64,000 nucleotides of DNA. Source: Nymphaea colorata. Taxonomy: Eukaryota; Streptophyta; Magnoliopsida; Nymphaeales; Nymphaeaceae. This document shows, in pieces, positions 1,690 to 63,800 of the stretch. A model generated the notes under the pieces. That model saw nothing but the letters and a program-made list of their open reading frames with translations. It was not told the DNA's origin and ran no database searches. The stretch lies in contig NC_045141.1 in assembly GCF_008831285.2 (NCBI RefSeq), positions 3,224,001 through 3,288,000 of the forward strand, written 5' to 3'. Both the position numbers and the translations under genes were made by a program. Each line of letters opens with the position of its first letter. Position 1 is the first letter of the stretch.

Positions 1690-4600
1690 CTATTTGAGTT
1701 GGGCGACGGTTGCTCGCTTGTTTCTTAGTAGAAGATCAAAGGTAGGATATACCAACAAAAAATTAAAATTCCGACTACTACAAATCTCAACGACGATGAA
1801 TGGGAGTCCAAGAATGGCATGGTCATGGGATGACTGCTCAACTCCATGGAACCATCCATACCAAATCTCTTTATACTGCACACAGAGTATGGGAAGCCAT
1901 GAAAGAACTTTACAGTGAGCAAAATAACCTTGCTCGGGTATACCATACAATGTGAAATTGCCAATCTCACTCTCCATGACCAAGATGTGTAGCGGTACGT
2001 TGGAAGATTCAAGAGCCTATATGATGAGCTCCTCAAATACCGACCAGCGACCTTTGATCCTCCTGTTTATAAACAGCGATTCAAAGAAGATCGAATCTTT
2101 AAAGTTCTCATTGGATTGAATGAGAACTATGAGACTTTAAGGACTCAAATCCTCAATACTATGCCATTGATAAAATTTAATGTTGTTCGCCAAATGATTC
2201 AGAGAGAGGTGTCAAGGTGAAGAGTCATGAGCGTCCCTCCTAAAGCAGACTCCATGGAGGACAGTCATGAAAAAATAGCAAGAAATTAGATCACACGCAT
2301 GACCACTGCTGGGAACTTGTGGGATGACTAGGGAAGGAAAAGGGTCTCTGTCAATCTCGGTCAAAGATGTCAACCTTGCAAACTTTGCCATCAAAGATGA
2401 CAAGGAGAAATTCTTTTAGAAATTTTCCAAGGCAAATCTTGTCTCATCTCAAGCAGTAGGCAAAATCTCAGAAGGTAAGCTCTATGCCTTATTGACGGCC
2501 ACAAGAAACAATTCCTGGATAGTTTATTCTAGTGCTACTGATCACATGACTAATGATCCCACAAGACTTACTGATCTAAATAGGGACCTTTATTGTTGTG
2601 TTTTTTCTACTGATGGGTCATCTATACAAGTTGTAGTCATTGAAAAGACAACATTCTTTGAGAAAAATATTAGTTTTGCTTTACTCGTTCCTAAACTTGC
2701 CGTCAACCTTATGTCAGTTAGCAAAATCACTCAAGATTATGATTGTCTTGTTGTTTTCTCTAAGAAGGATGCAATGTTTCAGAACCCGAGCATGAGGAAG
2801 GTGATTGGTAAAGGCCAGCGACATGGTGTCCTCTACACTTTGGATGCTGACAGTTTCAGTTTTTTTACTAAATTTAAATTGACTCGAAGGATAGATTATC
2901 AAATTTGACACACACGGCTAGGACACGTGATCGAAACCTCATTCTCCTCATCCCGTCTCTCACTATTGATAATAATAATGCATGTGAATTTGCCAAATTC
3001 ACACGCCACTTTCCAGTCGACTCATGAAAGGTCTACAAAGGCCTTTGATCTCATGCACTCAAATGTTTGGGGGCCTGCTCCAAAGGACTCTTATATTGGT
3101 TTTAAGTTCTATGTCTCTTTTATTGATGATATGACCCATAACCTAGATTTATTTTTTAAAAAATAAGAGTGGAGTGCTCAAAAATTTTGAAGAACTTTAT
3201 ACTCTCATCCTTACTCAATATGGTGCTAAGATTAAAATGCTTTGTTCTGACAATGGTGGTGAATATGTTAATGATACTTTGAAAAATTTTATGAGGAAGC
3301 ATGAGATACAACCTCAATACACTTGCGCCGGGACACCCCAGCAAAACAGCACCGTAGAAAGGAAAAACCGACGACTTTTAAATATTGTACGAGCTCTTAT
3401 GATGTACATGAATATACCACAAAATTTTTGGAGTGAAGCCATTGAGACAGCGTGTTATACATCTAATCGGGTCCCTAACTCTAGCAAAGAAGGAAAAATT
3501 CCTCTTGAACTTCTCCTCAACAAACCTCTATCACTTAAACACCTTAGGTGTTTGGGTGCAAATGTTTCATCCATGTACATGAAAGATTTAGAAATAAGTT
3601 TCAGCGGCATGCCATCAAATGTATATTCATGGGGTATTCAAGCAAGAAAAGGGGTTACCGCTGTTTTGGTCCTCTTTCCAAATGTATGACTGTATCACGG
3701 GATGTAAAGTTCTATGAAAATGAATTTTTTCTGACAGCTGCAGATAGGGGGAGGTCAGTAACAGATCTATTGAGAACAATGTTGATGATACTCCGGTCCA
3801 CTAGCTGACTTCTTCGCTAGTCAAATGCCTATATGCCAACCAAAGACCGCACATTTCCCTATTGATGACAGCAATCATGAAAGTGAGACGCTCATCTAGA
3901 GTAACACAACCGCCATCCAAGTTAAGTGACTACTACACTTACTTATCAGCTGAGAATATCCATTCAGTCAATAAATATCTACCTTTTGAAGCTCTCTCGA
4001 ATAAATACAAGTCATATATCTTTGCTACTTATGGTCATCAAGAGCTAAGAAAATTTATTGGAACTTGTGCAGATTTACGGTGGAAACAACCACAGAAGAA
4101 GAAATCAAGACACTTGAAAAGAACCATATATAGGACCTTGTTCCTCAACCGGAAGTAAAAAAACTGGTGGGCTGTCAATGGATTTATAAAATAAAGTTTA
4201 AAAGCAATGTGGATGTGGAGTGATATAAGGCTTGCCTCGTTGTAAAGGGGTTTACACAAACTAAGGGAATCGATTACAATGAAGCTTTGCTCCTGTAGCA
4301 AAAATGAATACGGTTAGTAGCATCTACAAAAAGATGGATTTTTTCTCAACTAGATGTAAAGAATGTGTTCCTTTATGGTGAACTATTAGAAGAGGTCGAC
4401 AGGGAAGTTCCACAAGGAGTTAGCTGCCGGCCTAGACATGTCTGCAAACTAAGGAAAGCCCTATACGAGCTGAAGGAATCCTCACGTCCCTGGTTTGCTC
4501 ACCTAAAGACTGCCCTTATCAAGTATGGATTTCAGCAAAGCTCTGCTGATTATACCATGTTCACATTTACCAGAAATTTCAAGGTAGCCATTTTGCTTGT

Positions 4601-9600: not shown

Positions 9601-10182
9601 TTTAAGTGTAAAAGCGAAAAAATAAAAATAAAAGAAAGACCAAAGCAAGGACGTCGATTTTGATTTTCCGAGTGCCGCGCTCACATTTGGAAAGTTCAAT
9701 GATTTGGGCTTCTTGAAGTTGGAAAAACAAAACCTTTTCCAACAAAGAACAACAACAGTAAGTAAATAACTAATTAAATAACATTGTTCAAGTATAAGAA
9801 AATGGCCAATTTTGTGGTAAAAAATTGTGAAACCACGAAAAAGTTTTCGCTATGGGCACATTTGGGATATGTGAGGACCTAGATTGGGCAATGACTAGGG
9901 AGGGGGAGACTGGAAGCACGCAGCTTGAGAAGCAAGCAAGCTCTAATGCCGGTGCAATACGACGTATTGATGAGCTCCCCATAATTAAATGTTGTATAGT
10001 GCAACGGGATCCATAAAAACTAAACTAACCCGTCGAATTTAAGATCAAGCAGCTGCGGGATTTCTGAACTAGACTTCAGGTTCAAAACTAGTCACATCGA
10101 TATGGGTAGGATTCAGGTATGGACATAGAGACATTAGTATGGACACGACAACTTTAAAAGCTATAGGTACGGAGATAAGACA

Positions 10183-10184
<2 letters not shown>
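9601..10184. other. Intergenic, nothing recognised
   Basis: AT-rich sequence without supported gene, RNA or transposon end. Confidence 0.35.

Positions 10185-10271
<87 letters not shown>
10185..10271. repeat. (AT)n microsatellite
   Basis: Uninterrupted AT dinucleotide run of about 87 bases. The length is likely to vary between individuals and may be inexact in the assembly. Confidence 0.95.
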
Positions 10272-10277
<6 letters not shown>

Positions 10278-10554
10278 TGCAGAAAAATTAGAATGAAAAA
10301 CATTTTAAATAAGCAATAAAAACATTATATGTTAACGAACGACGACTCTAAAACAAAGTTACAAAAAAATTAAATCAAGCAAAATTAAATAATTTGGATG
10401 AGCTTTGAGCTAAAAAGTATTTAAGTGTATCCAAGTACCCACTTGAAGTACGAGAATGATGACATGTGTACATAGAAGTTACTTAAGTACCCATGTAACT
10501 TAAACACCCATGTGAAGCACTTACGTGACATAGGTTTGTATTTACATCCAAAAG

Positions 10555-49799: not shown

Positions 49800-50810
49800 T
49801 AGGGATGTCAATTTATCCATTTGGATCGCATATCTGGCCAAAACGTACAAAAAAAAATGAATATAAAAAAATTTAGCATTTGATTAAGAGATTTGGTCGA
49901 ATTCGGATACACATACATATATGATCAGATTCAAATTCATATTGGAATTAGTTTTAAATAAGTATCCTATAAGCAATGCCCTTACATTTTACCTATGTCA
50001 CCGGGTGCGTTTCCTTTGAGCTCGCACCCGCACCCGACGCGTTGCGGGTGCGGGTGCGCTCCAGGTGCGCACCCAATCAGCACACGATGTTGAGCTCGCA
50101 CCCGGGGGTTGGATCTAGTTCCGAGTCGAAACCAAATCCAAACCAAGTTCATCTGCGTGTATGGTTTGGATCTGGATCTGATTTTAAAATGAAACCAAAT
50201 CCAAAATCCACAAAATCAAATCCACCATTCTCACCCGTCGCGGTTAAATCTAATTTAAGACATCTATAGATATATTATATGTTCTCTTTTCTCTTTAAAA
50301 AAAAAAACAATACAGGACTAAAGAATGGTGGCTTTCATATAAAACGATCTGTTTGCCTTTTTTTTCAAACATTTCTTTTTTGATTTTTTCCCACTATCAT
50401 AAAATGTATAATTTTAATTGTGTTATTCAATTTCTACGAAAAATTAATAATAATAATAATAATAATATTAATATTAATAAAATATCTTCACCGCACCGCC
50501 GCACCTAATTTTTTTGAGATGTGCCGCACCGGCACCAGCACCCGCACCGGCACCGGCACCCGCACCCCGCACTCAGGTGACATAGCATTTTACGACTCAG
50601 CTAGATTTGATGTAAAATTTAGATTTGGATGTGGATTCAAATATTGGATTTGGATCAGATTCAGATTGTCAAAATCAGATCTCAGATTCAGATCGGGACA
50701 TGATTTTTCTTCATTCTATTTCAAATCCGAATATATGAATATCTGGAAAAAATGGATATGGCTAAGGGTACATCAAATTGAATATGATCTCTGATCTCTT
50801 GACATCTCTA
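49800..50810. mobile_element. hAT-like element with TAGGGATGTCAAT ends, hosting a second hAT-like element
   Basis: Starts TAGGGATGTCAAT and ends TTGACATCTCTA. The flanking 8-mers gatgtgca (49792-49799) and gacatgca (50811-50818) match at 6 of 8. The atccgaat/attcagat-rich interior resembles the element at 32257-32703. It is interrupted at 49993-50585 by another element with its own perfect duplication. Without that guest it would be about 410 bp. Confidence 0.7.
49993..50585. mobile_element. CTATGTCAC-family hAT-like element, copy A (nested)
   Basis: Starts CTATGTCACCGGGTGCG and ends CGCACTCAGGTGACATAG. It is flanked by a perfect 8-bp duplication, cattttac (49985-49992 and 50586-50593). The subterminal regions are arrays of gggtgcgg or gcacccgcacc. 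There is no coding capacity. An 8-bp duplication with short inverted ends indicates the hAT superfamily. Confidence 0.85.
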
Positions 50811-50847
50811 GACATGCAAGTCATCACCCAATATCTAAAAAGACTGA

Positions 50848-51365
50848 TCATTCACTCACATGGCTTTCCTTAAGGAAACGCCAACTAAACCTATTAGAGG
50901 AGCTTCTGAGAAGTTGAACTGTCAAGCAAGCTACCGGTTTTCCTCCCTCTGTGTCGTGGACTTCAAAGTCACCCCTATGAGCAGGCAACGTTCGTGAGTG
51001 AACCTCTGACGCATGGAAGCCCTTTACTTGGCAAGAACGATTGTCTAGCAAGTAATAGCCAGGAGAGTGCTGATCACTATCAAATAAAAAATTTAAAACC
51101 AGATTGCCCTTGCACCTTGGGGACTCCCATTCACATGTCGAAGCAATCGTGTTCCCATCGTGGCAGACCCAACGCAACAATACACAACAGTTTGGAAGCC
51201 ATTCGAACGATCTCTAGAATCCTTGATATCATCTGCCTTTTGGAAGCAGGACAATTAAGAAAACAAGATGGCATTTGGCACGCTCAATCATACCTCTCGA
51301 GGTTTCATGATGACCATGGAGCAAGAGCCATTGTAGGCACACGCAGTTTGCTGATCTGTAGCTAA
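50848..51365. other. Unrecognised coding-like stretch between the hAT element and the RlmN-like gene
   Basis: Both strands have open frames: minus 50848-51180 (contains FEVHDTEGGKPVACLTVQLL) and plus 50994-51365 (contains LEAIRTISRILDIICLLEAGQL). Composition is closer to coding than the surroundings. I recognise no family. It may be a decayed exon of a neighbouring gene, transposon interior, or chance. Confidence 0.2.
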
Positions 51366-51625
51366 TAGAATGTGATAACTCAGATATTATGGTGCCTTTT
51401 ACATGGAAAATGTCAATACCATTCCCTTGAGTTCAATCGAAAAGCAATTCCCAATATTCCCTTTTGTGCTACAATCTAGTTGGTCTTTCATAAGAAAATT
51501 CATGGACACTAGAAATTTTTCATGAAAGTATAATTTTTTCATTAAGATGAGCAGTCACAAGGTTTCTTTTACAGATTGAACACCTGCATATTTCTGGTAA
51601 CAAAAGTTCTACTTTCAGTTCGCAC

Positions 51626-54367
51626 TTAGGTATGAAGATCTTCAATATCTGGCAATTCCATGCTGGCACTGAGTTGGGAAGTTGGCTTTGAAATCTTAAT
51701 TACCAATTGACCACACGCACCACTTATGTCCTGGCCCATTTGTTTGCGAACTGTTGTCCGAATTTTATAAACTTCTCTCAACATCTTCTGAAACTTTTTC
51801 ACATTCTGCTCAGAACTGCTCATAAAATGACTTGAACTACCGATTGCATTGAAAGGTATCAAGTTAATAACCTGGACATCATGCAGATAAATCTTACACA
51901 TAACAATCAAAAGAAATGTTGACCAGTCCTAAGGACTTGAAGGATCAGTTCTTCGTACAAGTATGAAGATTAAAACTCACCACGTCAAGTGTTTTAAGCA
52001 ACTTCCCAAGCTCATGAGCATGCTGCTCTTGATCATTGATGCCGTCAAGCATGATATATTCAATGAAGATTTTCTGGCCACTGAAAGCAAGAAAAACTAT
52101 AAAGTTCTTTAACTCAAATTTTGAGATTAAAAAGAAAAAGGAAAGTAAACCGTGTCTGAGTTGCACCACTTCTCCTGATACAGATGTAAAACATCCATAA
52201 GCCTTTGCAGAGGAAAGGCACTGGCAGCAGGCATTATCTGACACCTTATATCTTGAATGGGAGCATGAAGAGAGACGGCAAGTCTCACATTTGGCAAGTC
52301 ATCTTTTAACTTCTTGATAGCAGGGATAATGCCAACCTACATGCAAAAAATCTGAGAAGCAACTTCATTTATACTGCAAACCCTTTGACTTCCAAAGGCT
52401 AGTAAGTAAGCCAAACTTCTTAAACTACTCTTCAAGGAAAAAAAAAATGGTAAACGAAGAGCATATTCATCATAATAACAATTCAAAGAACACTAGAAGA
52501 AAACAGAATTGACATAGAAAAACATTATTTTGCTCCAATGTTATTGAACATATATTTTGACAACAAACTCGTATGTTTACAGTTCTTATAAATGATTAAT
52601 CCCTCTGTAATCTGTCACCTTCCATTCTTCCTTGGTGATAGTTCCAGGGTCATGGGTAACAGATGTCATTTGGGTCAGTTCTTAAGAGACCCTGCATTTG
52701 TAGTAAATATAAACAGGCATCTGGGATTAGGGTTGTCTGTGTGAATTTTAGGGTTTTCTTCTTGTTAATGCTGTACCAGGGTAGTAGTGGGAATACAACT
52801 CGCACACATTGCAAGAAAAGAACCCTAAAACTCTGAAACTCAACCCTAAACCCAGGTTAGAGTAACTCTCAGAGGGAATACAACTCAATAACCTCCGTTG
52901 AAACCCCAATCTACCAGCGTGCCTGTTTATATTCACTACCAACACAGGGTCTGTCTAAGACCCGACACAAATGAGACCCTTTACCCATGACCCAGCGATT
53001 ATCACTTGGTCTACCCTCTCCAATGGATGTAGTTTTTAGCTCTTTGGGAAAATCTCTATATTCTAGTAATGCAGGATAGCATTTTGCATGTTTCTCACTT
53101 ATAGTGCATGTTTTAGATTATATCACAAGTTCACAACATATAATTGTTCATTGTCAAGTGCCAAACATTATGATTATCATCAATCAACAATAATCATCAT
53201 CGTATTCATCGTCTTCCTTATTTTCTTCTTTAATTGTTTCAACATTCAAATGGAATGTCCTCACCAATATATGGTCAATTTTTCTAGAAAACTAGTAAAA
53301 CCTCCCCCTTCCACAGTTATAAAAGATGTTTAGAAAGTGGAAGGAAGGAGTTTTTTAAAAAGAAGCACGACAAAACTGGATTAAAAAAATGGGCCTCAAG
53401 CCACTTTTGTTTTGTTTTGTCCCCGTATCATAAGATATAGGGGGCGCATATTGGTCGTATCGTATGATACTTATGGCCCTCATATTGCACGATACAGGGG
53501 ATACGCCTATGATACAAAGGCGTATCATAAAACCTTTTTAACATATACAATACGTATCGGACGACACGGACCCATATCACGTGATAAGGATAACACTGCA
53601 ATGGCTATATTTCTAGTTGTTGGACATTCCAACAACAGCTTCTCCTTCCCATCTATTAGATTTTATGTCCCTTATGTCATTTTAACCTTTTGTAAGCTCT
53701 TTTTATGAGTAATCAATAATACTATTCATACTTATTCTGTGTACCATTGATACAGACTGTGTACTGTCTGTATTCAGTCATTTCCCCGTCATGTGTTGAT
53801 TACAATAACCTGAGTGTGTGTGATATAAAATTCAGTGTATATCACAACTCCTTCTATGGTATCAGAGCAAAAAGATTCTGCCCTGAGTTAATTTATGCTG
53901 AGAATATTTTGAAGCAAGTTTGTGATCAATTGTCGTATTCAAGAAATCAAGACCTGATCCAATGAAGGGGACAAATGTCATCAGCAGCGTTGTCCTAGTT
54001 TGAGTCTTACACAGATTGTCATTCTTTCACGGTGCTTCAAGGTGTGTTCCCTATTCCCCTCATTCTTTAGAGAAATGGAAGAAAAAGAAAATCTCTCCCT
54101 CCAACTCTTGCTCAAACTTAATTCCACAAATTATGTTACATGGGCTTCTACTATGAAGCATCATATTGGTAGAAAGGGTCCTTGGGGGTACCACTGATGG
54201 CTCCAAAAAGGAACCTAAACTTACCAATGCAGTCGCTTACATTGACCAAAGTTGTGGATGGAAAAGCCAAAGACCTGGTGGGAGCTATGTCACATAGGTT
54301 CGGGTACGGGTACGGACCATTTTCAAAAAATTTGAGTGCGGGGGTACGGCCGTACACACACGCGGAC

Positions 54368-54430
<63 letters not shown>

Positions 54431-57400
54431 AAAAAATTTCAAAATGAATAACATATTCATAACTCATGATCCAAAACACATTATGGAAGTAATTAACATA
54501 CAAATATATCCACTTTCTTGATTCTCCGTCGCATCATCAAGATTAGAAGGAGCAACAGGTCACACTTTTAAGATATATTGACATCGCTATGGTTATGGCT
54601 CACACTATTATCGAAGAGTCAAGTTATAGAGAAGGGATCACTTTTCAAAACATTGTATGGAAGATTTTAAATGAAAAGTTGTGAGGAACTATGTGCAAGA
54701 AAGGTTTAGAGTGAAAAAGGAAACAGGAAAAGAGAGGGGGATTTTTAATTTTCAACTCAAAAACTGGACAACTTTGGACTCGGTCAAAGTTGACCGAGTT
54801 CAAAAATAGACAAAAATGATCCTGGGTACGTTGACCGTACCCGATGCTGCGTTGACCGCACCTTTGCCGCACCCAGGGCCGTACCCGTACCCGTGTAACA
54901 TAGAGTGGGAGTTTAAAAGTAGAAAGCCAAAAATGATTAGGTGAAAAAATAAAAGAATGTGAGGATTGGACATCACAAAGTCATGTCATGGTTCTTAAAT
55001 AGTGTAGAAACCTCAACAAGTACACATTGCCGAATTTAAATATATAAATCAAGCATGGGAATTTTTCAAAGAGATGTACATGATAAGAGATGTTGCACAT
55101 AAATAAAATGTGCAGGTGGAAAATCTCTAAGCTTCAACAAGGAAATAATCTATAAAGGATTACTATGGAAAATTTCCTTGGTTGTGGATGAACTATCATT
55201 GTTTGAACCTAAATGGCATGTCGTCAAGATATTCTTCATCAAAAATTGATAGAGGAAGACAAATTTTATCAGTTCATTATTGGCTTAACGCTTGATATAG
55301 TAAAGGCATCACTCATTCATCGACCAAGTGTTCCTACCATCCATGAAGCGCTTGTTGAACTAATAATGGAAGAAAATAGACTAATTTATGGTAAAGAAAG
55401 AGCAGAAAGTGTCTTGGCGGTTTGTAAACCAGAAAATAACATTAGACCTTATTGACTACCATATTTTGGAAGAAATAATGAAGATTCAAGTATAAGGGTG
55501 ATTTGTTTTCAATGCCACGAAGCTAGACACATAAAACCAAGATGTCCAAAGCTGAAGAAACTTGAAAAGAAAGCAGCTACAGCAGAAAGTCATCAAGAAC
55601 CAGGTTCATTTGGAGGATTATCACGTACCCAACTTGCCAAAGCACTTCAACCACTCTTGAAAGAGAATTTTGCAACAACCGGAGCTGTTACAACTTCATC
55701 ACAAGGTACGATTCCTTGGTTGCTTGACTCCAGAACTTCCTTTCATATTACACCAAATAAATCATGCTTAACTAAATGCAAAAATAATTTTTATCCTTGC
55801 TTTGTTCAACAGCTGATGGGACTTCATTGAATGTAAAACCATTGGTAGATTTGAATAAATTCAAAAAAGAGGTTTTTAAAACACCAAACAATAGATGCAT
55901 TCTCAATTGAATCTCAACCTTTTATTGGTATGTCAAATAGCTGATCAGGGCTGGAAAATCAGTTTCGTACACGATAAATGTTTTATACAGGGTCTCTTCT
56001 CCGAGAGGACGATTGGGAAAGGACATAGAAGAAGTGACCTGTAGTTTGTGGATTTTTTGGACCTATCTAAACCTCTTTGTATTACAACCATAAAGAAGAC
56101 ATTTCTTTATGGCATCAAAGATTAGGTCATCCAAGTTTGAGCAAATTTAATGTATACAAGCGTTAAAGAACTTTTATAATGAAAATTTGTCCTGTAATAA
56201 ATGCATTTTGGGCAAAAAGAAGTCTCTTTTGGAAATGGAACTTATATGAGCAAAAGATCCTTTTGAGTTGATTCATTTGGATGTATAGGGGCCAACTGCA
56301 ATTTTCTCTAAAGGTGGATTTGCTTATTATGTTATATTTGTGGATGATTTTATGAGATATGTTTGGGTATACCTCCTCCAACATAAATATGAAACTTTCC
56401 TCTGTTTTAAAACATTTTATCAAATGATTAAAAATCAATTTAAAACAAATATAAAAAATTTATGCACAAATTCTGGTGGAGAATATTTATCAACTCTTTT
56501 TAAAGAATACTTGGAAGAAAATGGGATACTCCGTCAAAAATCTTGTCCAAGAACCCCTCCACAAAATGGAATTTCTGAAAGAAAACATTGTCATATCATA
56601 AAAACAACAAAAACTTTGCTGATTTCAAAATATGTTCCCAAAAACTTTTGGGCTAAAGCAATTTTTATGTCAGGTTATCCAATTAATACAATGGTATCTA
56701 AAGTCTTCGATAACATAGCTCCTTTTCAAACTTTACAATACGGAACCTAACTATGATAGATTAAGAGTATTTGGATGCAAATGCTATATTTTAAATGATA
56801 AGAATAATAAATTATCTTCAAAAGCTATAAAATGTGTTTTCTGGGATATTCTAAGACACAAAAAGGATACAAATGCTATGATGTTAATAATGATAAATTA
56901 TATATTTCATGAAATGTGATTTTCATTGAAAATAAAAAAGGATTTGAAAAGGAAGAAACTGAACATAATATGGATTACTCTTTTTTGTCTGATCTTCTAC
57001 CTTGAAACAATGAAGAAGTTGAAAAAAATGCAGCAACTGGCCAAGAAAGTCCTAGTATTGAATCTCGTAAAGAAATTATCACCTATCATAGAAGAGAAAC
57101 ACCTAGAGATATTCTTACAAATGACCCTTCTCTTGAACCACCAGTGGGAAGGCCTAAAAGGAGTATTAAACATCCTGAAAGGTTTGTTTCCTATGAGTCA
57201 TTTAGTCCCAAATGTAGGAAGAGATAGGTAACCATACACTTTTTTCTTGAACCCACTAGTTATCATGAAGCTATTCAGAGCCCTCAATGGATAGAAGCAA
57301 TAAATGCTGAATTAAAAGCCTTAAAAAATGTGAGACTAGGGAGATCATACCTTTACTGAAAAATAAGAAAACAATAGGCTATAGCTGGGTTTTTGAAGTT

Positions 57401-60400
57401 AAAACCAAAAGTGATGCTACCCTAGAAAGTTTTAAAGCTAAATTAGTTGCCAAAGGATATTGCCAAGAATATGAAATGGACTATGAAGAGACATTTGCTC
57501 CAATTTCCCAGATGACCTCAGTTAGATCCCTCATAGCAATAAGCTCCATTAAAAGATGTCCAACATATCAAATGGTGTTTAAAATATTTTTTTTATTAGT
57601 GAATTTACTGAGAAAGTATACGTCACCTCCTCCAGGATATAAAATATCTTAAGGGTCTGTTCTGCACTTGAAGAAGGTACTTTATGGTTTGAAACAGGCG
57701 ACTAAGGCCTGCTATGACAGATTCTGCAAGGTTTTGAGACTTTTGACTGAACATGGATTCGAGTGATGTTACTCAGATACTGCTTTATTTGTAAAAAAAT
57801 CATCTCTGTGATTTTACTTTTTTATGTAGATGAAATGATCATTACAGGTGATGAATATGATAAAGATGAAGTGAGAAAAATCAAACAACTTTTAAAAAGG
57901 GAATTCAAAATGTCAAACTTGGGGTTCCTCACATATTTTCTTTGTACAGAAGTCAGTTAATCTAGAAGAGGATATCTGATATTCCAGATCAAGTTGTCGA
58001 CATAGTTAATCGCTCTGGAATCTCTAATAACAAGTTTATTGAAAATCAGAAGTACCTGGAATGAAAATGAAGATAAATGATGGAAAAGCAAAGAAAAATC
58101 CTACACCATATTGACAGTTGGTTGGAGCTCTCTCCTATCTATCTATTATCAGACTTGATATTGCTTATATTGTGCATTTAGCAAACTAATTCCGACATGC
58201 TCCCACTACAGTTCATATGGGTACAGTAATGAGAATCATTCGGTACATAAAAAATACCATTAACAAGGGTGTTTTTTTGCCCTCAACTTCTTCTTTGGAA
58301 TTAATTGTATATACTGATACTAATGGGAGAAGAGACCCCAACAATCAACATTCCACTACTAGTTTTTGTGTGTTTTAGATACTTTGTTGACTTTCTAGAG
58401 ATGCAAGAAGCATCAAAGAGTATTTTTGTCTTCCACAGAAGCATAATAATGAGCAATGGCATCAACTGCTATGGAAATTGTGTGGCTAAAATGTCTACTC
58501 AAAGGCATGGGACTGGAGTTTGAAAAACCGGCAAAGTTGTGCAGTGACTATAAAAGTGCGTATATATATTGCCAGCAACAACATTTCTCATGAGAGGACT
58601 AAAAATATCGAAATGGACTATAACTTTGTCATAGAGGAACTTTAAAAGAAATCCATCAAGTTGTCCTTTGTTACATCAAAAGTTTCAGCTGGCAGACTTT
58701 TCACCAAAAGGCTTGTACCATGATTCTCCTTTATTTTTAGCAAACTTTCAGTGGTTTCACCATAAGTTTAATGAGGGTGTTAAAAAATATGTCAGAAGAT
58801 TTACTACTAAATTAGGATTTTTTGCATCAGATTAGATTTAATTTGTTTCTTTGATGTCATATTTTTTAAATTATTTATGCATTTTCTTTTGTGTTCGTTT
58901 ATTTTTGCTTGCTGCCATTTACTAGCTGTTGGAATATCCAGTGGATATATTTCTAGCTGTTGGACATTCCAACAGCTTCTTCTCCTTCCTATTGATTGGA
59001 CTTTATGTCCCTTATGTAGTTTTAGCTTTTCGTAAGCTCTTTTTATGAGTGATCAAAAATACTTTTCAGAGTTTATCTCCTCTCCTTGTGAGGATTCTTT
59101 GTTTATAACTGATACAGACTGTGTATTGTCTGTATTCAGTCATTTCTCTGTGTTGTGTTGTTTACATGAACCTGAGTGTGTGTGATTTAAAATTCAGTGT
59201 ATATCATAATTCATAACTCCTTTCAGCATGCACATTTAATATCATTAGAAAATTCAGTCAGATAGCATCTCCTTCCCTGACTCCTACCTCAAATTTCCAG
59301 CATTTCTTATGTTTGTGACTGATCTGAGCTTGACCATGTGGTATTTGAAATATGTCACTTTAGATCATATTCATCACAGTTAATGCCCTTAAGAAATTCA
59401 GAATCATACACCATCCTTTTTCTTAGCATCCAATAGTGGTTTCCTGAACAGTAAGAAATAAGTGTTCGCATTATGAAGAGTTATCATATAAGGTAGTATT
59501 GCACGCCTAGATATGGTGCTGACCACCAAAACAGAGAACCTGGATGACAAAAACGAACAATACCATGCATACTGAAAGGACTAATACATCACTCACAGGG
59601 TTAAATGTCAATTATTGTTGCATAGATAGATGGACAGTTTCTGGTCCAATGCTTCAACATTAGCTAATTTTTCTACAGTTGGTGCAGATCAATGCTGACT
59701 GTTGCTCAACATACGTTACCCACTATGAATGATTGTGGTGGAGGATAGGCTGGAAATTTGTGGTACACTATTTAATGATTAAGGTGTGTCCAATGGTTGA
59801 GGTGGCTCTTGTTTCTTGAATTTTAAACAGCTTTAGATGAAATTTTGAGGGATTTTCTATTCTATTACTACAAACTATATAAATCAACTCTTTAGGAAGC
59901 TACCATGACCACCTGCACTAGACTATGTCACATAGGTACGAGTACGGGTGCCGGTGCACGTACTGGTGTGGGTACGGGTACAGACCATTTTCAAAAAACT
60001 TGGATGTGGGGATACGGCCGTTTATATATATATATATATATATAAACAAGAAGAAATACTTAGAAAATATATATCAATGGATCTTGCAGCAGTGTTTTTA
60101 AGAAACCTATGAAAAACTATCTTGCAGCAGTGTTTTTAAGAAACCTATGAAAAACTTTAAACATATGGACAATAGAGCAGCCCTCTAGATAGTCGAATTT
60201 CATGCAAGAAAACAAAAATACGACTAAAAACAACAATAAAAAGGAAAAAAAGTTCATGCAGGAAGGTCACCGGAGGTTGCTGGAAGTTGCTGGATGTCAC
60301 AAGAGGTCGCCGGACGTCACCCACAATTTTGTGGAGGCTCTGCGTTTTTGAAAGGAAATACTAAAACAAAAAAAAAACCTAAGTTTTGGACGAAAATGGA

Positions 60401-60805
60401 CTTGGTCAACATTGATCGAGTCTGTTTTTGGACGGATATGAACCCGGGTACGTTGACCGTACCCGATACGTACCCCTACCTGAGCCGTGTGCCAATGGCG
60501 TACCCGTACCCGTACCCATGTCTCACCCGACCGGTAAGGGTACTCCACCAGAAAAAACGTACCCATGTTACATAGGCACTGGATGATGCATGCTGTCCTG
60601 AGGCACCAAAGTCAACCATCATCCATCAAAAGTGCAGCAAACTGGACTTACCTACCAGACTCAACCTTGACTCATGTGATGGTTCTTATCAAGAGTCATA
60701 ATTTCACAAATCCAATAGCTCATTTACATAAAAAAATTTATATTTATGCTTTTACCATATACCATTTGTATATTCTTGTTTGCTTTTAGTATCAAAAACT
60801 GTTTG

Positions 60806-60852
<47 letters not shown>

Positions 60853-63800
60853 CATTTACACAGCACTCTCAATTTCTTGAAAAATGCAACAACCCTGCAT
60901 CCACACCCATATTCATGCAAATATCCTTTGCTCCATCAAGCCTCTATTCAATCTTTTATGCTAGTGAAACAAGTAAATTGTTTCTGACAGTTGAAAATTG
61001 AAACATTACAAAATATGTGTTTAAGAAGTGAAACAGAGATGCACAAGGAAAAACTTCTAGGGTATGTCACATAGGTGTGGGGTGCGGGTGCGGCATCTGA
61101 AAAAATCTGGGTGCGGCGGTGTGGCAAGGGTATTTATTATTATTAATTTATTATTATAATATATATATACATATATAACAACAAATTATCCATAAAGCAC
61201 AAAATTATCAAATAACTGAATCAAAATTGCAATTTGCAAACGCGAGTCAGGTGTGCGCCTAGAAACGACGATTTTAGTCGGGTGTGGCTGACCGCACCCG
61301 ATTCACTTTAAACTTGGCTGGGTGGGAATCTGGGTCGCACCCGCACCCACACCAGCGTCGCGTTGACGCGGGTGCAGGTCCAAAAATGGCACACCCTTGT
61401 GACTTAGCTTCTAGGATGGCCCCTGTCAAATATAACTTAGGACAAGGGACAAGACCATAATGAACAATCTCAAGATGTATAAAAAGTACTCTGTGTAATA
61501 CAGCTTTTTATCAAGTCTAAGTCCTATAATCTGTCTCAGTTTGATGACATACAGTAGATATGGTAATTCTCTTTGGTGATAATCGAAATGGGAAGCTTAT
61601 CATGGACTGGACTGCTTCAACTACTGCTGTATAGTTGTTCAGTGGTTCCCCCATTCCCTGCATATCCAAGTGATAACAGTGAGTAAAGCTCTCTAGAATT
61701 GTGATATACAAAGGTGCAAACATAAGAGATGATGGTATGGGGAACAACAACGTTAACAGGATCCACAAAGAATGAAGCTGAACAGAATACCTTCGGTGCA
61801 AAGTGCTATCAGTACAATTAAACACCACTTTCAATACTTTAAACTATTAGTGGTTGAAGGAAGCAGCACTAGCCATGAGTTCAATACAGTATTGCAGCAA
61901 TTAGGCAAAGCAAACAAATCTGTTACAGTCAAACCAAGTAAAAGAAAGCTCCATTGCGGACCAGCTGAATGAATACTTGAACTCTTTTCAAAAGGTCTAC
62001 TGTCTACATATTTGAGATAAGGAATTGTTTCCAAATGAAACTGGAATACAAATGCAACTGACTCATAAGCAAGAAGAGATGGAGATAACCATGTAGTTTC
62101 TAACAAATGAACAATATCAACTGAGTAAAGTACGTCTAAAGTCATGCCGATCGCGAAGATCATACCATAAAAACAACATTTCTAATGCTTGAGATAAAAG
62201 ATGCGTGAACCAGTTGCTCCACAATCTCCCCTGATGACAGATTACACTTAAATCCCATACTTCCTGTAGCGCAAAATTTGCAACTCATTTTGCAACCTGC
62301 CTAGAAAATTCAAAATAAATCAAAGACATTTCAATGATTAAAAGGAACTCAAGCAAATGTAAGAGATGGAAATATTTTTCCAATAGCATGTGTACAGCAA
62401 ATTCAACACCTGAGATGATATGCATAAAGTTGACCTTGGACCTCCAGGTCGAGGTTTGCCACCATACTTCCCGAGACGTGTGTCATATCTCATAATAACA
62501 GCTTCAACATGAGAACCATTCTGATGACAAAAATGTGGTCAATGTCATATAATGTGTCGATGTAGAAAAGGAAAAGAATGGATTCTCTGTTAATCTGAGT
62601 ATACCATCATCAGCTTTCCTAAAAACAAAAAGCTTTTCAAGCCACAGCCAGAAAATGCACAAAGAAACATGGACCTTGAGTGCAAATGGAACTAACCAGG
62701 AGTGCAGCAAGACAAAGAATGAAATAGCTAAAGCCTCAGGTTTTTCATCAACACAATTTCTAAGTATTTTAATTAAGCACGCAGTTTACATGCAGGCTTT
62801 TAATAAGAATTAAGAACATAAAATGAAGGCATATATTTTTTGTAACATGAAAAATACACACCAGTCCTCCACAAAGTTGAGCACAACTGCAGAGTGGGTC
62901 TTCCGCAACTGCCTTCAAGCAGAACGGAAAGGTGATTCAGCATTGCAGCCACTCTGCACTCTGGAGCTTTTCCGAGGTATGTAGACAAAAGATTTAGGAG
63001 GCCAGGGACATTGCCTGGGGACAGGGGTTCACTTGGCAATAGGATTTCTTCTCATAGAAAAAGGAAGAAAGAATAACATTGCAATTCTAGTATCAAAGAA
63101 GTTCATTTTCACATTGGGACGGATCAGTTTCCTCCACCCCTTTGGAAGCAAACTTCTCATACAGTCTCAAAAGCATGAAAAAAGCATGTAATTCAGTTCC
63201 AAAGAGAGCTTTTAGAAACCATATTCCAAGGTTTCAAGAAAAAATTTCAGGTGACCGAACACTATAATGGAAAATACAAGAACCCAAATTTTCAATTATT
63301 ACAATCCTAATAAATTCTTACTATTCTTCTACTTAACCTCTCCACTTTCTGACATGCAATGAATCTAAAAGTAAGGCAGTTAATAACCTTACGTTTATCC
63401 ATGTGTGTGTTTGTGTGAGCGTTTAAGAGAGAGGGAAAGAGACAGAGAGTAACTGAAAGAAATCAATGCCAATTTAGTGGCAATGCCAATCGCAAGCACA
63501 AGCTGAAAGAAATGTGCACACCTGCAATCTGACAAGCAATTTAGTGGTAACCTTGTCTTCAGAATTTGTAACTAATTCCACGATAGACGTCATCGGTCTA
63601 AATTTGGAAACCAGTACAGGGTAGGCAGCAGAAGGCAACGATGGAACGTCATTGATCTGACAGTTGGGTTGATCAAGAATGTACCTGGATATTAAGAAAT
63701 GGTAGTCCTAACAAAGATTTAGAGTTACCGAAGTTTCATAATATCAACTTATAAAAACAAAACAACCAGACAATAATCGTAAGATCTCGAACTACTGAAC

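Follow-up and report, generated by a model that had tools for sequence, protein, structure and literature searches.

Transposons of the hAT superfamily carry short terminal inverted repeats, usually with an A at position 2 and a G at position 5, and miniature inverted-repeat transposable elements (MITEs) are non-autonomous, non-coding, multicopy elements of under 1 kb. In maize, according to the part of the account consulted, the Ac/Ds system comprises a small number of elements that carry a transposase and numerous short derivatives, heterogeneous but with the ends and some subterminal repeats in common (PMC3260210). Here we analysed a 64,000-bp stretch of Nymphaea colorata DNA (contig C4, positions 3224001-3288000; hereafter the window) and searched the whole assembly, of 407.8 Mb in 783 contigs, for relatives of four short elements in it, named A, B, C and D. 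The hAT membership of the four is strongly supported: very probably they are non-autonomous transposons, each inserted by cut-and-paste through a hAT transposase from longer elements elsewhere and leaving an 8-bp duplication.

Element A (49993..50585, minus strand, 593 bp) has the ends CTATGTCAC/CTATGTCAC and the duplication CATTTTAC (8/8, at 49985-49992 and 50586-50593). The other three lie inverted with respect to it, on the plus strand: B (54285..54903, 619 bp), with ends CTATGTCAC/CTATGTTAC and duplication GGTGGGAG/AGTGGGAG (7/8, at 54277-54284 and 54904-54911); C (59923..60575, 653 bp), with ends CTATGTCAC/CTATGTAAC and duplication GCACTAGA/GCACTGGA (7/8, at 59915-59922 and 60576-60583); and D (61062..61407, 346 bp), with ends GTATGTCAC/CTAAGTCAC and duplication CTTCTAGG (8/8, at 61054-61061 and 61408-61415). 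An 8-bp duplication of 7/8 or 8/8 is therefore found in 4/4 elements, and the positions, ends and duplications given in a preliminary description of this DNA were all borne out on re-reading the window. The same description distinguished two kinds of subterminal array, which our data support: GGGTGCGG repeats occur within A and D and GGGTACGG repeats within B and C, the exceptions in the window being single stray copies of GGGTGCGG in B (54867) and outside every element (24663). A window scan in which CTATGTCAC-type ends had to be accompanied by a duplication of 6/8 or better (loose class) yielded 10 candidates, and a strict class, with at most 2 end mismatches in total and a duplication of at least 7/8, contained no others than these four elements. 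Dinucleotide shuffling of the window, repeated 60 times, produced the strict class once in total, and the loose class reached a mean of 1.5 per shuffle and a maximum of 4.

The four had been described as copies of one family, and this did not hold. A, read on the minus strand, is 81% identical to D over 84 bp, and B and C share 73% identity in a block of 111 bp and 74% in one of 81 bp, with interiors that are mostly unalignable; A, B, C and D belong to four related families having mainly the ends and the subterminal blocks in common. The genome searches place A and B in separate multicopy families and C in an older one, and the two halves of D find their matches apart. The search with A (40 places scored of 783 candidates) gave best pieces, besides A itself, 85-98% identical; the search with B scored 40 places of 1002 candidates; with C (40 of 1012) the best piece per place was 71-83% identical, which points to an older, diverged family; and with D (40 of 609) positions 1-179 and 176-346 matched separately, no other place among the 40 scored having both halves contiguous. 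A homogeneous multicopy MITE family with fixed ends is represented by each of A and B, C being diverged and D finding no such family among its scored places.

Copies of A-type and B-type were fetched, together with three D-type places (L109, L110 and L111). The scripts that located the ends took the best duplication within 40-60 bp and allowed up to 3 end mismatches, a procedure that slightly favours hits. Among 28 A-type loci, A included, the duplication was 8/8 in 22 and 7/8 in 3, and all duplications were different; these copies lie 1.6-7.8% from their own consensus. At the end where A has CTATG, the 25 copies show CAATG in 15, CTATG in 5, CTCAG in 2 and CACAG in 3, so that an A at position 2 is seen at one end of 15/25 copies, the base being mostly T elsewhere; the inverted ends are short and the G at position 5 is present. 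On contig C7 (9492888-9494170) two A-type copies lie on the same strand with 166 bp between them.

Among 30 B-type loci, B included, 24 had a duplication of at least 7/8, of which 14 were 8/8, and 17 copies lie 2.7-7.1% from the consensus. Six of these loci (L052, L053, L054, L056, L057 and L058) represent one insertion amplified along with its host repeat, their flanks being 96-99% identical to those of L053, and the independent B-type insertions with at least 7/8 are therefore 19/25. The duplication of D, CTTCTAGG, resembles that of the amplified insertion, CTTCCAGG; both are followed by GTATGTCAC, the first base of the element being G in both. A shared insertion of D with these six loci was considered and ruled out, as the flanks are unrelated.

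The count of target sites took in the duplications of 25 A-type and 19 B-type insertions; loci that failed the duplication test were excluded, as were five of the six copies of the amplified insertion. The hAT target preference has been given as nTnnnnAn, in the part of PMC3878927 consulted, and A-type and B-type duplications follow it as a tendency: T at position 2 or A at position 7 occupies 52/88 positions (p 7e-8; A 31/50, B 21/38), both being present together in only 14/44 duplications.

The evidence that ties these ends to a hAT enzyme comes first from an element of 3543 bp on contig C2 (22026188-22029730), with an exact 8-bp duplication, AGTAGAAG, on both sides. Its left end, CTATGATACACAGG, directly after AGTAGAAG, corresponds to the 3' end of B and C, and its right end, GTGACATAG, before AGTAGAAG, to their 5' end; inside is a match to the N-terminal part of the transposase at 87% identity, in an open frame of 698 aa, with one stop in the matched stretch. 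The protein search behind this match used the N-terminal 305 residues of the transposase as query (129 scored of 1101 candidates) and gave 132 matches, with large numbers both at 62-91% and at 46-60% identity; the two transposase groups used below are identity bins (at least 62%, and below 62%). A second, related transposase group, of about 54% identity and often with an open frame of 670 aa, includes seven places of equal score that have this frame, two of them 2.7 kb apart on contig C9, and looks young.

Allowing up to 2 mismatches, we found the B-type end pattern at 320 sites in the genome and its reversed control at 0. We compared 100 of these 320 sites, those listed, with 121 transposase places, leaving out 11 further pieces of the same places. 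Among the end sites listed, 12/68 places of at least 62% identity have a convergent B-type end 1.5-4.2 kb downstream and 0 have one in the other three arrangements, while the 53 places below 62% have 0 downstream convergent and 1 upstream; random placement gave a mean of 0.08 and a maximum of 2 in 500, against the 12 seen. This pairing links the GGGTACGG type, to which B and C belong, with the close transposase group. A transposase-bearing relative with B/C-type ends, of the sort that the preliminary description suggested looking for, is found in the C2 element, and the 12/68 pairing agrees with it. The hAT identity proposed there also agrees with the fetched copies, most of which (25/28 A-type, 24/30 B-type) keep their ends and 7/8-8/8 duplications.

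A second line of evidence is L109, a stretch identified in the search with D by one 5' and one 3' match on the same strand within 3.7 kb. Its gene shows DUF659 (PF04937, E 5.4e-26) and the hAT C-terminal domain (hATC, PF05699; E 2.6e-14, 53.2 bits with a cut-off of 21.4), together with a further DUF659 piece just below cut-off and one piece without a match; the C-terminal piece matches the Hermes transposase (E 3.2e-5 across 64 residues). These domains, the Hermes match and the gene match in the C2 element indicate that related elements encode a hAT C-terminal domain. A (minus strand), B, C and D all match L109 in the subterminal blocks. D 33-179 and D 176-346 flank the L109 gene and overlap in CAAA (D 176-179), so that D looks like an internal deletion of an L109-like shell. 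In addition, B positions 14-300 can be aligned, in reversed orientation, with the 3' end of the L109 gene, the last codons of the gene included (218 identities, 44 mismatches, 44 gaps). The remnant of the transposase gene 3' end inside B (B 240-276; 54524..54560, minus strand) is 95% identical to L109 3377-3341, and its reverse frame sets 16 residues against 19 in L109.

Mutator, P, Merlin and Novosib elements can also leave duplications of 8-9 bp, and the four could in principle belong to such a superfamily, the link to a hAT gene being a chance nesting. A duplication of this length is not by itself diagnostic of hAT, and the end starts with CTATG, with T at position 2 in place of the A that is usual in hAT. 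We nevertheless consider this reading very improbable: CAATG is found at one end in the majority of A-type copies, the targets are biased towards T2 and A7, the pairings of B-type ends with hAT genes among the end sites listed follow one fixed arrangement, and transposase codons lie inside B. The C2 element tells against it as well. A superfamily other than hAT was accordingly rejected on the transposase evidence.

Several observations weigh against the assignment of the four to hAT, or against parts of it. The duplication test failed at 3/28 A-type loci (L003, L006 and L008) and at 6/30 B-type loci, and for B alone positions 3/6 are as biased (22/38) as positions 2/7 (21/38). The C2 element was read in its two outer regions only, and its left end, CTATGATAC, departs from CTATGTCAC at 2/9 bases. 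The L109 gene is in broken reading frames, L109 is without the first 32 bases of D, and no clear duplication was found around it. Finally, no ends of these types were found at the 30 best hATC loci with their 1.5-kb flanks, nor in the 1.3 kb downstream of 20 more, the hATC place of L109 itself being absent from the 150 hATC places listed. We still regard the identification as firm, although the kind of element is an ordinary one: the four appear to be shortened relatives of longer transposase-bearing transposons in the same genome.

The history that we propose is the following. Longer elements elsewhere would make a hAT transposase by which A, B, C and D move by cut-and-paste, each insertion leaving an 8-bp duplication. 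B, C and D would have arisen by internal deletion; in D the junction has a 4-bp overlap, which is what gap repair, when interrupted, would be expected to leave. The transposase would recognise the 9-bp end plus the GGGTACGG or GGGTGCGG array next to it. A and D were probably mobilised by this enzyme or by one related to it, and the four would have come to rest by separate insertions.

The genomic setting bears on this last step. A gene encoding an RlmN-like protein occupies 51629..61843 on the minus strand, with exon pieces near 61.55-61.67, 52.17-52.34 and 51.70-51.87 kb. The first two of them join at profile position 199, the junction falling near 61.55 kb in one and near 52.34 kb in the other, and B, C and D therefore lie within one intron of about 9.2 kb (about 52337-61549); A is located past the last recognised exon. 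A is inserted in an older hAT-like element (49800..50810, strand not assigned), classed from its ends (TAGGGATGTCAA/TAGAGATGTCAA) and duplication (GATGTGCA/GACATGCA, 6/8) only. B is inserted in a decayed Copia-type element with long terminal repeats (LTRs) (53599..59212, plus strand; LTRs 53599-53850 and 58939-59212), whose class was assigned by eye from reading frames and whose LTRs differ at 34/252 aligned bases. The hosts are thus other repeats for A and B and one intron for B, C and D, and since A lies in the older hAT-like element, B in the Copia-type element and C and D in the intron itself, the insertions are separate.

Local hopping, which the preliminary description had entertained, or tandem duplication of a single founder at this locus would account for the presence of four elements within 11.4 kb. 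A hint of bunching comes also from the flanks of 36 A-type and B-type loci (some from the amplified insertion), where 8 more end hits lie within 93.6 kb; the surroundings of 50 hATC loci, a set that is not a random control, gave 0 in 123.3 kb. We consider an origin from a single founder here highly improbable, as the interiors of the four differ, their duplications and immediate surroundings differ as well, and among the scored places the best match of each is on another contig: A on C3 (95%), B on C8 (95%), C on C14 (77%) and the first half of D on C1 (82%). Besides the four, the window contains at 10088-10533 a possible decayed fifth element, with a B-type profile match at 10091-10213 (E 0.007) and GTGACATAG at 10525-10533; a convincing duplication was looked for there by eye and none was seen.

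Whether the two subterminal types are served by one enzyme or by two can be discussed on the D-type places. The GGGTGCGG type of A and D has blocks of its own, and the right end CTAAGTCAC is found in D, L109 and L111. Just past its gene L109 contains a reversed, truncated 5' block of B/C-type, and as a whole it looks like a chimera of a D-type shell and a B-type gene. A single transposase might serve both subterminal types, D-type shells taking up B-type genes as filler with no two matched systems, and we hold this to be a real though minority possibility. The lay-out of L109 speaks for it, in which a close-clade gene lies between outer blocks of D-type, with the B/C-type block adjoining, as does L111, an element of 1653 bp with D-type ends and an exact duplication, GTAATCAG, whose interior has sequence in common with L109. 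In L110, by contrast, there is a D-type end preceded by GTCATGAC, and after it come decayed transposase pieces in antisense, whose identity to the close clade is only about 37% over 68 residues, suggesting a separate D-type enzyme; a second end was looked for in L110 and not found. It is conceivable, if rather doubtful, that one hAT lineage split into two systems set apart mainly by one subterminal base (GGGTACGG versus GGGTGCGG), each with its own transposase clade, and that shells and genes were exchanged between them, as in L109. Should this be true, the genome would hold a natural series in which changes in the DNA code read by a transposase could be followed. At L111, a further element, of 389 bp, lies at positions 3744-4132, at a distance of 2 kb from the 1653-bp one; its ends are B/C-like and its duplication, AGGAAAAG, is exact.

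With these results four orphan repeats become members of a hAT group, which within a single plant genome includes transposase-bearing elements, a range of deletion derivatives and two subterminal codes. Annotators gain usable ends and a test case for the joint divergence of subterminal repeats and transposases; the knowledge of hAT elements in general is unchanged, and the novelty is modest.

No description of these end sequences was found in the open-licence full text of PMC that was searched; a looser match, to a 9-mer, was given by 182 papers, of which the 20 listed deal with other subjects. An end pattern was found in none of the viral and bacterial contigs scanned, as expected for plant repeats. 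A repeat of Solanaceae and rosids with ends CTATGTTGCTCGGACTC, which we take to have this general lay-out, is a candidate for kinship only: the first six bases of its end are as here and the remaining sequence differs. The CTATGTTGCTCGGACTC stretch is contained in a tobacco small RNA, as given in the part of PMC3237444 consulted. The hAT MITEs BniHAT-1 and BniHAT-2 of Brassica nigra (666-673 bp, non-coding, multicopy, with 8-bp duplications) are similar by description; they belong to another species, and the part of the text consulted gives neither a CTATG nor a CAATG end (PMC7385995). With the Hermes transposase, a hAT enzyme of solved structure, the likeness is one of sequence, in which only about 64 residues of the L109 C-terminal piece align. 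As far as the consulted part of its account goes, maize Ac/Ds resembles the present group in its 8-bp duplications, short inverted ends, subterminal repeats and filler DNA in derivatives, and also in that elements with a transposase are few and short, heterogeneous derivatives numerous (PMC3260210). It differs in its ends, which are C/TAGGGATGAAA in Ac and CTATGTCAC/CAATGTCAC here, and in its subterminal repeats, a hexamer in Ac and GGGTRCGG arrays here; the likeness to Ac/Ds is one of lay-out.

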